A DNA stretch of 64,000 bases from Planctomycetota bacterium (GTDB lineage Bacteria > Planctomycetota > UBA1135 > GCA-002686595). Shown here piece after piece: positions 16,785 through 21,535 of the stretch; within the stretch, counting starts at the first letter, position 1, and the number at the start of each line of letters is the position of its first letter. The notes under the pieces are model-generated. The model searched no databases and had not been told where the DNA came from. It saw only the letters and a list, made by a program, of their open reading frames with translations. A program made the translations under genes and the position numbers. The DNA is taken from the NCBI GenBank assembly GCA_028278425.1, contig JANQEJ010000037.1:97112-161111 (forward strand), written 5' to 3'.

Positions 16785-17264
16785 CTATTGGAACGGGCTC
16801 TCGCGGTCGGGCGCGGCGGCGCGCAGCTTGGTCTCGAACTCGGCGTGGTGCGCGTTGGCGAGCCCGACGGCCGTCCACTCGCCGCGCAGGCGGAAGCGCA
16901 GGTGGTCGCCGGTCAGCCGCCATTCCTCGAGGTCCGCGAGGCGCCGCACGTACCAGCCGCGCCGGACGCCGTCGCGGCCGCAGACGCGGTCGCCGTCCGC
17001 GGGACGCAGCAGCACGAACGCGAGCGTCAGCGCCAGCGTCGAGAGGCTCCACGGCAGCGGAACCTGATCGCTCCCGAGCACGGCGGCGATGAGCGCCGCG
17101 GCGACGAGGCCCACGCCGAAGAGGCGGCCGCGGAGTCCGGGCAGCTCGCGCTGAACGACGTCCCCCACCGCGCGGGCGCGGACGCGCACGGCGAGCGCGA
17201 GCGCGACGCCGACGGCGAGCGCGACGTCGGCGCAAAGGAAGACGGCCTGGAAGTGGGCGGGCAT
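16785..17264 (-). CDS. small membrane protein (uncharacterised; TM segments then a soluble C-terminal part)
   Basis: MPAHFQAVFLCADVALAVGVALALAVRVRARAV...LVAAALIAAVLGS...; start codon lies inside the left 63-bp direct repeat. Confidence 0.5.
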   Translation of the reverse strand: MPAHFQAVFLCADVALAVGVALALAVRVRARAVGDVVQRELPGLRGRLFGVGLVAAALIAAVLGSDQVPLPWSLSTLALTLAFVLLRPADGDRVCGRDGVRRGWYVRRLADLEEWRLTGDHLRFRLRGEWTAVGLANAHHAEFETKLRAAAPDRESPFQ

Positions 17265-17315
17265 GGGGGCGCGTAGAATAGCGTGCCCGACGCCCTTTCC
17301 ACTCCACGGCGTGAC
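17253..17315 (+). repeat. left copy of 63-bp direct repeat flanking the radical SAM cassette
   Basis: gtgggcgggcatgggggcgcgtagaat...cgccctttccactccacggcgtgac; ungapped match to 21473..21535 with 7 mismatches counted by eye. Confidence 0.9.
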
Positions 17316-17352
17316 GGGAGCGGAGGGGACGGTTCCCCACCCGAAGGGAGAT

Positions 17353-18714
17353 TCACCGCGGAGCCGAGAGCGGCTCCCCGCGCCGCCTCTCGGCGCCGTT
17401 CCCCGACGCCGGCCTCGTGACCCAGGTCGCGGTGTCCGGGTCGTACATGCAGTTCCAGTGCCGCGCGCCCGCGTGGCCCTTCCGTTCCACCGTCCGCACG
17501 AGACACGCGCGGCAGCCAAGCCGGAACTCGCAGCCGCCGCATGCAGGGGTATGCCTTCGCGCCAGGTCGTCCACCTCCTGGAGCATCTCCTCCCGGAGGA
17601 CGTCCTCCATGCCGGTCTCGTTCAGGTCGACCAACTCCTTCCGCCAGCCGATGCAGGGCATCATCCGACCGTCGGCTGCGATGAAGTACGCGTTGTCGAA
17701 GCAGTAGTGCGTCTCCCCGTTCGCCTGAAACGCGTCAACGCCGACCTTGAACGACTGGGGGGAGCTGGCTCCCGTGAAGGCGCCCAGCTCTTCGACCGAT
17801 TCGCCGCTTCCGGAGGCATACGGGAACACCATGACCACGGCGGCGCCGAGCTCCCGACCCCAGGCCGCCACGCGGTCCAGCCCTTCGCGATCCGCCACAC
17901 GGAAAGGAACCTTGAGCGAAAAGGCGACGCGCGCCGCCTTGAGGGCCGCCGCGGCGTTCACGAGGGCATCGAAACTCCCCGGCACGCCGACGGCCTGCTC
18001 AAAGTCGTGTTCCCGGTTCGAGGGTGCCAGGAGGACCAGATGAACGGGCTTTCCGCGGAGACGGTTCGCCACGCTCTCGTCGATGAGGTGCCCGGTGGAG
18101 TGAACCTCCAGGCGCATGCCGAGCCCCGTGCCGGCGTCCAGCAGGGCCCACAGGCGGTCCGCTTCGAGGAACGGCTCCCCGCCGCGGATGATCAGCTTGT
18201 CTACTCCGACCTCGTTCAAGATCTCGACGGCCGATACCAGCTCGTCGATCGGAAGAAACTCGCCGTGGTCGCTCCACACGCCGCAGGAACAAGCGTCGGA
18301 GGTCAGCCCGGCACCCGACGTACACCATTCGCAGTCGTAAACGCAGCGATCGCTGATCTCGACCGTCAACCTCCCACCCTCCCGGAACTGCCCGAGTCTC
18401 TGCACTTGACTCCTCAGCGGGGTGGGCCGGAAGTTCTCCACGCCGGTCCTGCGCTCCGTGAAGAAGCCCAGATTCAGCTTGGACAGGCCGGATGCGTATC
18501 CAACCAGGTCGATCTCGCGAACCCCGGCCTCGGTTGCAGCTTCGGCCAGTGACTTCCCCGAGTGGAGAAGGCACAAGGCCCGCGCGAATCGGGCGTCACG
18601 AATCCAGTAGATTTCGCGCTCGAACAGCCCGTGGATGGCGAGACCTTGCCGCCCCCTGACGAGCCGCGCGTCGGGTTGAAACGCGAAATGGCGTCCCCGC
18701 TCGGTTGGTTTCAT
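17353..18714 (-). CDS. radical SAM/SPASM-type peptide maturase
   Basis: TVEISDRCVYDCEWCTSG (CX3CX2C), LIIRGGEPFLEADRLWALL, C-terminal Cys cluster CIGWRKEL...CGGCEFRLGCRACLVR...WNCMYD. 4-bp overlap with the upstream radical SAM gene. Confidence 0.9.
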   Translation of the reverse strand: MKPTERGRHFAFQPDARLVRGRQGLAIHGLFEREIYWIRDARFARALCLLHSGKSLAEAATEAGVREIDLVGYASGLSKLNLGFFTERRTGVENFRPTPLRSQVQRLGQFREGGRLTVEISDRCVYDCEWCTSGAGLTSDACSCGVWSDHGEFLPIDELVSAVEILNEVGVDKLIIRGGEPFLEADRLWALLDAGTGLGMRLEVHSTGHLIDESVANRLRGKPVHLVLLAPSNREHDFEQAVGVPGSFDALVNAAAALKAARVAFSLKVPFRVADREGLDRVAAWGRELGAAVVMVFPYASGSGESVEELGAFTGASSPQSFKVGVDAFQANGETHYCFDNAYFIAADGRMMPCIGWRKELVDLNETGMEDVLREEMLQEVDDLARRHTPACGGCEFRLGCRACLVRTVERKGHAGARHWNCMYDPDTATWVTRPASGNGAERRRGEPLSAPR

Positions 18715-20345
18715 GACGGGAGCTCCAGCAGTCCGTTGCGGTCCATCAAGGGATCTCCGGACGAGAGCGCGTTCGGAGCTTCCTCAAGTATCGTGTAGAG
18801 GGCGATCAACTGCTGGGCGATTCCGCCGCAGGTGACGTCGCACATCTCCTCCGAGACGCGAAAGTCACCGCCATCGCAGGCCTGGGCGTAGCAGGTGCCG
18901 CACAGCGCGCGAGCCCAGCAGCGGTCACAGTCCGGGAGCGCATCGCGGTATCGACCCAGGACCGAGGCGGCTCGGTCCAGATCGAAGCCGCGCTCGACGT
19001 CGCCGATCGGGAAGTCCTCGTTGATCCTCTCGCAGAGGTGAAAGCGACCGTCGGTGGAGACCGCAATGCGCCGGCCGGGTTCGCAGGTGCCCGTAGTCCA
19101 ATGGCGGCCCGGGATTCCGACGAACATCGTGCGTTCGTACAGGGTCCTGAGTCCGGACTCGAAGAGCCTATGGAAGAAGCTCCCCTCCGGCTCCGGAACG
19201 CCCCGCCGCTTCCTGTCACGGAATTCGTCGAACAGCTCGTGGTACTGCTTCTCCGCTCGCCGCGTGTCAGCGGGGTATTTCTCGTGGAACTCGCCGTGGG
19301 CCTGATCGCGGATGTTCCCCACGAAATCGATGGGAGGTACGAGGGGGTCATCCGAGTCGAAGAAGTCCCGGATGGCGAGCAGATCCGAGTTGCCGGTCAG
19401 CGTGACCACGGCACGCACGTGCTTGTGGAAGTAGTCCTTGTCGATGCGGTAGAGCTTCTCCAGGTTGCGACGGATCGCGTCGAACGTGCCGCCATCGGCC
19501 CGATTCCTCCGGTAGCGGTCGTGCACCTCCTGGGGGCCGTCCATGCTGACCAACAGACCCACCTCGTTGTCGACCAGGAACTCCGCGAGGTCGATCGGCA
19601 GATGCGTGAGGTTGGTCGTCGCCGAAAAACAGAGGTTGTAATGAGCTTTCCGCTTGGACCGCGCATAGGCGACGACGCGCCGCAGCAGAGGCCCCTCTAG
19701 CAGGGGTTCGCCGCCGAAGAACGCAATGTCCAGCTTGCGCCTGGGAATGGAGCGAAAGGGCCGCTGGTCGTTGAGCTCCAGGAAACGATCCACCGCTCGC
19801 CGCGCGGTCTCCCAGGACATCTTGTCACGGCGAATCGATTTGTAGCCTTCGTATTGGCCGGAGAAGATGCAGTACTTGCACCGGAGATTGCAGTCGTCGG
19901 TCAGGACCAGGATCAGGTTGCTCATCACCGACGGCGTCGGCCTCCAGGCCGTGCCGAGAGGAGATTCGCACGCATTCACTCCCCGGTTGGTGTGGTCCGC
20001 GCACTCGTCGCAGGACGCGGCAGGGCCCGGAGCCTTGAAGCATCCGGCTCGCCTGCGCCATTTCAGGATGAGGGCGGTCAGGTGGGGCGGTGCCCCCAGA
20101 GCCTCGACGAAACCCGGAACGGCTTCGTCTGGCGTTGAGTAGAGCAGCTCCGTGTCCGCTACCGAGACTCCGTCCGGCCACGCGTGAACCGTGCCGGTTG
20201 CCGCATCGAAGAGGTACTTCGCGCGGTTCATGGAGTAGAAGACTATGAAGTCCTTCGTTGAGCGAACGTGTGGCGTCGCGTCTGCTGGTGACTTCCGTTC
20301 AGACCGCCGACCGCCGTTCTGTCCCACATTCGTTGTTCCTAGCAT
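18711..20345 (-). CDS. radical SAM/SPASM peptide maturase
   Basis: LTDDCNLRCKYCIFSGQYEGY (CX3CX2C), DIAFFGGEPLLEG, SMDGPQEVHDRYR, SPASM-type Cys cluster CERINEDFPIGD...DCDRCWARALCGTCYAQACDGG...CDVTC. Start at MLGTTNVGQ chosen; MNRAKYLFD (20231) is an alternative. Confidence 0.92.
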   Translation of the reverse strand: MLGTTNVGQNGGRRSERKSPADATPHVRSTKDFIVFYSMNRAKYLFDAATGTVHAWPDGVSVADTELLYSTPDEAVPGFVEALGAPPHLTALILKWRRRAGCFKAPGPAASCDECADHTNRGVNACESPLGTAWRPTPSVMSNLILVLTDDCNLRCKYCIFSGQYEGYKSIRRDKMSWETARRAVDRFLELNDQRPFRSIPRRKLDIAFFGGEPLLEGPLLRRVVAYARSKRKAHYNLCFSATTNLTHLPIDLAEFLVDNEVGLLVSMDGPQEVHDRYRRNRADGGTFDAIRRNLEKLYRIDKDYFHKHVRAVVTLTGNSDLLAIRDFFDSDDPLVPPIDFVGNIRDQAHGEFHEKYPADTRRAEKQYHELFDEFRDRKRRGVPEPEGSFFHRLFESGLRTLYERTMFVGIPGRHWTTGTCEPGRRIAVSTDGRFHLCERINEDFPIGDVERGFDLDRAASVLGRYRDALPDCDRCWARALCGTCYAQACDGGDFRVSEEMCDVTCGGIAQQLIALYTILEEAPNALSSGDPLMDRNGLLELPS

Positions 20346-20446
20346 GCCATGGCTCCCTGGCGTCGACCGATAACCGTGGAGGCGCGGGTGAAGCCGCGCA
20401 CTGGGCTTCACCCCGGGCAGGACTCATTCACGCTGGTCGGCTGAGA

Positions 20447-21058
20447 TCAGCTCCGGTATCCGATCGGCATCGGTTGATCCGGCGTGGCGCTGGAGAACAG
20501 CGAGCCGGCGATCCCTCCGACCGTAACGACTGAGGCCGTTATCGCGGCCGCGCCGACGCCGACGACGACGGACAGAACACACGAACCGCAGGCCGAGCAG
20601 ACGCTGCAAGTACTGCAGGTGGCGCACGCCGCGCACCATGCGCAGTTGTCCGCCGCGAGGTCGGTCGCGCCGAGGCTGGTGTGTAGCGTACGGGCCAGGT
20701 CCGGCGAGACGGGCATCGTGCTGCTCGTCATGGCCCCGGAGTCCTCCAGCACCTTGTAGAGAAGCTCGTAGTAATCCGTGGGAGCCGTCTTCCCCGCGGC
20801 CACGCCCTTCCTGATGGCGTCTCGGATCTTGTCGTCGTTCGCCTGAACGACTCTATGGATTTGCTTGTCGAGGAGGCTGGTGGGCGACCCATCCTTGTCG
20901 ACGGGCCCTTGAGTCGCCCGAAGGAGCCTCCCCGCGGCTTTCTTCGTGGCGTCGGTCGTGGCGGCATCGGGTTCGACACCCCCCGCCATGCTCTTCACGG
21001 TTTTCTCGCAGAGCGCTACGTCCTTCTCAAGCTCGGGAGTAAGCTGAAACTGCTCCAC
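20447..21058 (-). CDS. candidate RiPP precursor: long leader, 8-Cys CxxC-repeat core, C-terminal hydrophobic helix
   Basis: ...SLGATDLAADNCAWCAACATCSTCSVCSACGSCVLSVVVGVGAAAITASVVTVGGIAGSLFSSATPDQPMPIGYRS; adjacent to and co-oriented with two radical SAM/SPASM genes. Confidence 0.8.
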   Translation of the reverse strand: MEQFQLTPELEKDVALCEKTVKSMAGGVEPDAATTDATKKAAGRLLRATQGPVDKDGSPTSLLDKQIHRVVQANDDKIRDAIRKGVAAGKTAPTDYYELLYKVLEDSGAMTSSTMPVSPDLARTLHTSLGATDLAADNCAWCAACATCSTCSVCSACGSCVLSVVVGVGAAAITASVVTVGGIAGSLFSSATPDQPMPIGYRS

Positions 21059-21314
21059 AATGAGATCCTCCTTTTAGTCACTACTTCGTTTGACGCGAGC
21101 AATCGAAGCGACCACTCTCCACTCGAGATTCTCCCTCGGGGACCACGCCGAGGGCATTCGAACAAGTGCGTACTACGGCGGTGGAATCGACGTACGGGGT
21201 TCCCGCACGGATGCGATTCCTTGGAGGAAATGCACCGAACTACAGGTGCGATACGCACCAAGATCGGATGGCACGCTAGCGTAGATCGCCGATGAGGATC
21301 GACAGGGGAAAAGC

Positions 21315-21458
21315 ATGAGACGTCTGGGATACTTGGGCTTTCTTGGTCTGCTGGGTCTGCTGGGCTTCAAGGACCCGTCGCTCTTCTACCTGTTCTTCTT
21401 GTTCGCTTGCTTCTGGTTCCTGAAGTTGCCGGACAGGAGCAAGAAGACAGACGGTTGA
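21315..21458 (+). CDS. 47-aa hydrophobic micro-protein (not in ORF track)
   Basis: MRRLGYLGFLGLLGLLGFKDPSLFYLFFLFACFWFLKLPDRSKKTDG; ATG preceded by purine-rich gacaggggaaaagc; LGFLGLLGLLGF repeat-like TM. Confidence 0.6.
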   Translation: MRRLGYLGFLGLLGLLGFKDPSLFYLFFLFACFWFLKLPDRSKKTDG

Positions 21459-21472
21459 GGCCATGGCGTCCG

Positions 21473-21535
21473 GTGGGCGGGCATGGGGGCGCGTAGAATG
21501 GAGCCGCCGATGCCCTTTCCCCTCCACGGCGTGAC
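21473..21535 (+). repeat. right copy of 63-bp direct repeat
   Basis: gtgggcgggcatgggggcgcgtagaat...tgccctttcccctccacggcgtgac; contains the intact start of the AMP-ligase gene. Confidence 0.9.

Follow-up and report, generated by a model that had tools for sequence, protein, structure and literature searches.

Three genes lying in the same direction on the minus strand (positions 17353-21058) of the window, that is, the whole 64,000-nucleotide stretch of DNA analysed here, code for a precursor with a ladder of eight cysteines and for two dissimilar radical SAM/SPASM enzymes, E1 and E2. They lie in an acquired insertion, and the best explanation we can give, held as a whole with about even confidence, is that a RiPP module of sactipeptide type was acquired horizontally and that both enzymes belong to a pathway installing up to eight nested thioethers on one precursor. 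The layout of the region is as follows.

20447..21058, minus strand: precursor gene, 203 aa, with a GTG start and GGAGG upstream
20386..20413, minus strand: perfect 10-bp hairpin with an 8-nt loop between precursor and E1, found in the sequence
18711..20345, minus strand: radical SAM/SPASM enzyme E1, 544 aa; the ORF opens at 20411 (18711-20411, 566 aa)
17353..18714, minus strand: radical SAM/SPASM enzyme E2, 453 aa, its start overlapping the E1 stop (ATGA)
17316..21472, no strand assigned: inserted cassette, 4157 bp, low GC
17253..17315, plus strand: left copy of a 63-bp direct repeat, bounding the insertion
21473..21535, plus strand: right copy of the 63-bp direct repeat, bounding the insertion

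The gene order proposed by an earlier, sequence-only reading was confirmed: the two enzyme genes are in tandem directly downstream of the Cys-ladder gene (20447-21058) and overlap by four bases (ATGA, 18711-18714). The likelier start of E1 is the ATG at 20345, with AGGGAG 7 nt upstream, so that the 566 aa given previously stand for the ORF, and the one correction is to the protein length, which would be 544 aa if translation begins there. The 101 bp separating the precursor from E1 contain the hairpin, whose stem was equalled in length in 6 of 5000 Markov shuffles. It has no T run and may stabilise the precursor mRNA or attenuate expression of the enzymes.

The cassette is an acquired insertion. 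It sits at the GC minimum of the window (64.4% versus 70.5%), and the GC3 of its three genes is 0.81-0.84, against 0.92-0.95 for the neighbouring genes. The copies of the direct repeat that bound it are 89% identical and cover the starts of two divergent genes, coding for a short protein (minus strand) and an AMP-binding ligase (plus strand). In a related genome (G061) the orthologs of these flanking genes are head to head with nothing between them, representing an empty site. The direct repeat, the low GC and this empty site together indicate that the precursor gene was acquired jointly with those of E1 and E2. No other argument is as strong for E2 serving the precursor, and the proposal that one precursor is served by both enzymes is well motivated, as the three genes have the inserted cassette to themselves. 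Besides these three, the only substantial genes of the segment, there is a 47-aa hydrophobic ORF (21315-21458, plus strand, MRRLGYLGFLGLLGLLGF...) with a marginal match to DUF3796 (E 0.001, below cut-off), possibly a small membrane or immunity peptide, or a chance ORF. A genomic repeat element was rejected as the identity of the 63-bp repeat, as the genome holds only two copies. Neither the whole cassette nor the E1-E2 pair had an ortholog in the other genomes searched. The gene content includes no transporter or protease, as had been read from the sequence, and the two genes of the genome matching C39 peptidases are found only on other contigs; leader removal and product export would be carried out by enzymes encoded elsewhere.

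The precursor can be divided into three parts.

20645..21058, minus strand: long N-terminal leader, residues 1-138, its boundary inferred from the sequence
20579..20644, minus strand: Cys ladder C139-C160, eight Cys at period 3 (CAWCAACATCSTCSVCSACGSC), putative thioether donors
20483..20578, minus strand: hydrophobic half rich in A, G, V, S and T, residues 161-192, putative hairpin acceptor strand or, alternatively, a membrane helix

A period-3 run of eight Cys did not occur once in 200,000 residue shuffles, the longest shuffled run being five. The 32 residues that follow the ladder are mostly small or hydrophobic. Nested pairing with a turn of 5-7 residues would place all eight partners at 166-189, inside this small-residue segment, which is compatible with such bridges and is not a proof of them. 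The precursor has the layout of type I sactipeptides, with putative Cys donors on the N-terminal side and a C-terminal half permitting nested pairing. No relatives of the precursor were found in Pfam, NCBIfam, PHROGs, the PDB, plasmids or phages, and a DNA-pattern search for CXX ladders was swamped by matches to 9-bp tandem repeats.

The closest analogy is with thurincin H, in which the bridges Cys4-Ser28, Cys7-Thr25, Cys10-Thr22 and Cys13-Asn19 have a period of three and are nested (PMC8172795). The precursor core resembles this layout with twice the rungs, a period-3 ladder followed by a putative acceptor strand, and since the period is the same, its bridges would also nest. The ThnA/ThnB system likewise relies on a radical SAM/SPASM enzyme, whose N-terminal RRE is needed for substrate recognition. 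However, thurincin H has four Cys, a precursor of 40 aa and a single enzyme, where the cassette has eight Cys, a 203-aa precursor and two enzymes; the thn cluster also has its own protease and transporter, which the cassette lacks.

Both enzymes carry intact motifs, and an N-terminal domain is predicted in each.

19869..19892, minus strand: E1 radical SAM motif CNLRCKYC, C152-C156-C159
18840..19085, minus strand: Cys of the E1 SPASM auxiliary clusters, C421-C502, from a motif search
20046..20246, minus strand: predicted RRE/PqqD-like N-terminal domain of E1, approximately residues 34-100, from AF2 and hhalign
18322..18345, minus strand: E2 radical SAM motif CVYDCEWC, C124-C128-C131
17449..17703, minus strand: Cys of the E2 SPASM auxiliary clusters, C338-C422, from a motif search and Pfam
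18481..18693, minus strand: predicted N-terminal domain of E2 with an RRE-like fold, approximately residues 8-78, from AF2, Foldseek and similarity to the L034 enzyme

The CX3CX2C motifs and C-terminal auxiliary Cys clusters previously noticed are complete, each enzyme having also GGEP and seven SPASM Cys (E1: C421/C438, CX2CX5CX2C at 473-485 and C502; E2: C338/C354, CX2CX5CX2C at 392-404 and C422). Both proteins exceed the Pfam cut-off for Radical_SAM, and E2 also exceeds that for SPASM. Beyond these motifs the two sequences are indeed unlike, with a BLASTP match no better than chance (E=0.70).

By sequence, E1 groups with Cys-peptide and sactipeptide maturases, in line with the resemblance of its N-domain to those of Cys-rich-peptide maturases that had been noticed in the sequence. 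Its best NCBIfam model is the Cys-rich peptide radical SAM maturase CcpM (TIGR04068), with the core and the SPASM region aligned, at 215.4 bits (curated cut-off 500), followed by RumMC (NF035951) at 192.9 bits (curated cut-off 720), the CFB peptide maturase at 153, QhpD at 146 and PapB at 145, all far below their cut-offs. In a tblastn search against plasmids the best matches were in Ruminococcus albus pRUMAL03 (6e-33) and Anaerococcus prevotii pAPRE01 (8e-31), where the neighboring genes carry the annotations 'huazacin family RiPP' and 'Apre_1838 family putative sactipeptide', respectively. A maximum-likelihood tree, which took in no PapB or SCIFF maturases, places E1 with the clostridial huazacin/Apre_1838 maturases and with three enzymes of the same order (L180, L181 and L185) at 100/100 support, apart from QhpD and NlpM. 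Identity to known maturases is about 23-30%, and the closest PDB relative, by both sequence and fold, is the thioether-forming CteB (fold match 1.4e-18; the mean pLDDT of the AF2 model is 69.7). Tree, motifs and CteB fold thus agree in describing E1 as a SPASM-bearing radical SAM maturase akin to sactisynthases. Clustering of both enzymes with anaerobic sulfatase maturases had been named as one of the results that would speak against the sequence-only reading; it was not observed for E1, since E1 groups with sactipeptide maturases instead. The sulfatase maturase model was itself rejected, giving 77.3 bits on E1 (cut-off 349) and being absent from the 25 best models of E2. QhpD/PeaB was also rejected as an identity for E1, given the 100/100 separation from QhpD and a cassette with no genes for amine dehydrogenase subunits. 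A scan of a collection of genome contigs with E1 found no relative.

The N-terminal domain of E1 is predicted by AF2 as beta3-alpha3 at low pLDDT (about 40-60), and the aligned N-domains of the E1 family match a PqqD-like profile over their length (hhalign 56% over 67 columns), lending modest sequence support to an RRE-like domain. The linker that follows (approximately 19966-20042) has extra Cys outside the standard clusters (C102, C112, C115 and C126).

The clade-mates of E1 are themselves associated with Cys-dense peptides. L180, L181 and L185 lie directly downstream of such precursors, 8-43 bp away or slightly overlapping, and the L181 precursor has a period-3 run, CSHCGQCGAC, while that of L180 has a long CX ladder. 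A further E1 relative, in the G291 genome, adjoins a 74-aa peptide with CFGSCASYC. The listed precursor ORFs (L180:4061-4876, L181:5547-6086 and L185:2521-2991) contain 24, 10 and 11 Cys; two of them have twin-arginine-like leaders, and they bear no family name. In the huazacin/thuricin Z family of R. albus (pRUMAL03, WP_013483959/60) the maturase is 27% identical to E1 over 400 aa, and the core has a C-terminal half rich in A, G, S, T and V that resembles that of the precursor (ASAITASGTAAGG versus AAAITASVVTVGG). Unlike the cassette, that locus has a CxxxC...CxxxC spacing, one radical SAM enzyme, a short precursor and an adjacent ABC transporter.

E2 is probably a peptide maturase as well, though this is less certain than for E1. 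The HMMs that score best on it are those of the heme-pathway enzymes AhbD (60.7 bits) and NirJ2 (44.4 bits), membership in which was rejected as the curated cut-off of 500 bits is missed, and in the tree it forms a long branch with no supported partner. The enzymes of loci L034, L031 and L033 (22-24% identity) are the only relatives that match it from the N-domain through to the signature CxxCEFRxxCxxC...CxYDP at the C-terminus; all three lie next to small Cys-repeat peptides whose leader is basic and hydrophobic. Short Cys-Pro-rich repeat peptides are present there at L031:9229-9842, L033:4700-5068 and L034:8523-8783, and these three radical SAM enzymes, E2's closest relatives, have a PqqD-like domain at their C-terminus. 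Searches of the class and phylum gave no ortholog of E2, and viral contigs gave five distant matches only. A scan of the same collection of genome contigs with the E2 alignment recovered 61 loci, all with distant enzymes, AhbD/MftC-like ones among them, and no E1-type neighbor or Cys ladder was present at any of these loci.

The AF2 model of E2 (pLDDT 65.4) predicts a beta3-4/alpha3 topology for the N-terminal extension at low to moderate confidence, and the top Foldseek matches of the enzyme are SuiB, TigE and SkfB, of which SuiB and SkfB are RRE-bearing maturases. The extension resembles the N-domain of L034 at a level matched or beaten by 2 of 2000 shuffles. No match to PqqD-like domains was obtained by sequence, including with hhalign, so it is the predicted fold that carries the RRE assignment, and an RRE-like domain is weakly indicated in the sequence. 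Of the two N-termini, for which a comparison with RRE/PqqD domains had been suggested, that of the E1 family aligns with PqqD-like domains, and the RRE-like character proposed for the E2 extension fits the predicted topology and the fold matches and is not backed by PqqD sequence similarity. E2 also has a CxC (C142 and C144, approximately 18283-18291) in an insertion private to it, outside the standard clusters.

In the pathway that we favor, the long leader of the precursor would be bound by the RRE-like N-domains of E1 and probably of E2; known sactisynthases bind the leader with their RRE and require this domain for bridges to form (PMC8188230). E1, as a sactisynthase-like enzyme, would abstract alpha-hydrogens from residues of the half rich in A, G, V, S and T. 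Thioether bridges would be closed by the Cys thiols of the CXX ladder with its eight rungs, which the SPASM clusters probably present, and up to eight bridges would nest in a hairpin. E2, produced by coupled translation from the same transcript, would act on the same precursor, either as an obligate partner or on a subset of the bridges. Joint thioether formation on one precursor is favored because of two known systems. In thuricin CD, two different radical SAM enzymes (TrnC and TrnD) cooperate on the same substrates and may both be needed for any bridge, and the radical activity of only one is strictly needed; the donors are N-terminal, the acceptors C-terminal and the hairpin nested, as proposed here, but there are two precursors with three Cys each instead of one with eight (PMC12093266). 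Ruminococcin C also requires two enzymes for one product, and RumMC1 and RumMC2 are radical SAM/SPASM enzymes with an N-terminal RRE acting on one product family (PMC8188230), but they share a family name, while the subfamilies of E1 and E2 are unrelated, and ruminococcin C has four bridges in a double hairpin. A tandem of dissimilar radical SAM enzymes is also found in HxsB/HxsC, with weak profile matches (E1 96 bits, E2 16.8 bits); membership in the His-Xaa-Ser (HxsABCD) system was rejected, as the precursor has no His-Xaa-Ser repeats and the cassette no HxsD gene.

Several observations count against a sactipeptide pathway, namely the low identity of E1 to known maturases and its failure to reach any curated NCBIfam cut-off, the lack of a supported tree partner for E2 and its heme-pathway HMMs, a precursor that has no detectable homolog and is much longer than known sactipeptide precursors, a hydrophobic half that could be a membrane helix, and a cassette for which no complete ortholog was found and which has no protease or transporter nearby. 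The same enzymes might instead bridge Cys to beta or gamma carbons, making a ranthipeptide or a QhpD-type product. CteB, the best PDB match of E1, makes a ranthipeptide-class bridge between Cys and Thr (PMC8326336), and the PapB and QhpD scores on E1 point the same way; yet CcpM and RumMC outscore PapB, QhpD and SCIFF, the tree joins E1 to the huazacin/Apre_1838 maturases and splits it from QhpD and NlpM (with PapB and SCIFF maturases not in the tree), the acceptor half has no Asp or Glu before residue 194, and the period-3 hairpin follows the thurincin H pattern, all of which makes this unlikely in our view. We give similarly little credence to a division of chemistries, in which E1 would make thioethers and E2, from the AhbD/PqqE/SuiB side, would form a carbon-carbon bond, epimerise or decarboxylate. 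It would account for the distance between the two subfamilies, the private CxC insertion of E2 and the fact that SkfB is the only thioether enzyme among its closest folds, but the relatives sharing the N-domain of E2 adjoin Cys-repeat peptides, and there are sactipeptide systems in which two enzymes carry out a single chemistry (PMC12093266, PMC8188230). That two enzymes mean two chemistries, one of the options given in the earlier reading, does not follow, the thuricin CD pair acting jointly.

A product that stays membrane-anchored had also been proposed, and is one reading of the hydrophobic half, where hairpin sactipeptides carry their bridge acceptors. Taken further, the precursor would be a Cys-rich protein anchored in the membrane that binds an Fe-S cluster or a metal, and the modification made by the radical SAM enzymes would be a different one. 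A hydropathy peak of 2.33 over 19 residues (160-178) would suffice for a membrane helix, and a cassette lacking exporter and protease fits as well; however, the relatives of E1 are thioether peptide maturases, and sactipeptide cores likewise have hydrophobic, small-residue C-terminal halves, so that we regard this as highly improbable.

Returning to the two-enzyme sactipeptide pathway, such systems are already known, and what is new here is a ladder with eight rungs, a long leader, a pair of enzymes drawn from different subfamilies and the host group, as well as a compact mobile cassette without protease or transporter. The boldest version, that a radical SAM pair from unrelated subfamilies jointly installs eight nested period-3 thioethers on a 203-aa precursor, the longest sactipeptide-like ladder described, and that a 4.2-kb cassette without a transporter carries the whole pathway from genome to genome, is put forward only tentatively, being rather doubtful in full. 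If the sactipeptide reading is right, the architecture of this class would grow from four bridges to eight and take in precursors with long leaders, and the product would be a larger relative of known bridged antimicrobial peptides. The pair would also allow a clean examination of the division of labor between dissimilar radical SAM enzymes on a single repetitive substrate, an issue that thuricin CD raised, and would link the unexplored Cys-dense precursors of this order (L180, L181, L185 and G291) to clostridial sactipeptide maturases.

Other loci of potential interest were encountered. Twin-arginine-like proteins with many spaced Cys and Asp lie directly upstream of radical SAM enzymes at L183:5915-6700 and L375:4789-5760, and appear to form an undescribed maturase-substrate pair. 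In addition, the G000 genome has 69 radical SAM matches in a 7.8-Mb assembly, and a second, more distant CcpM-like enzyme is present in it on contig C38 (L213).
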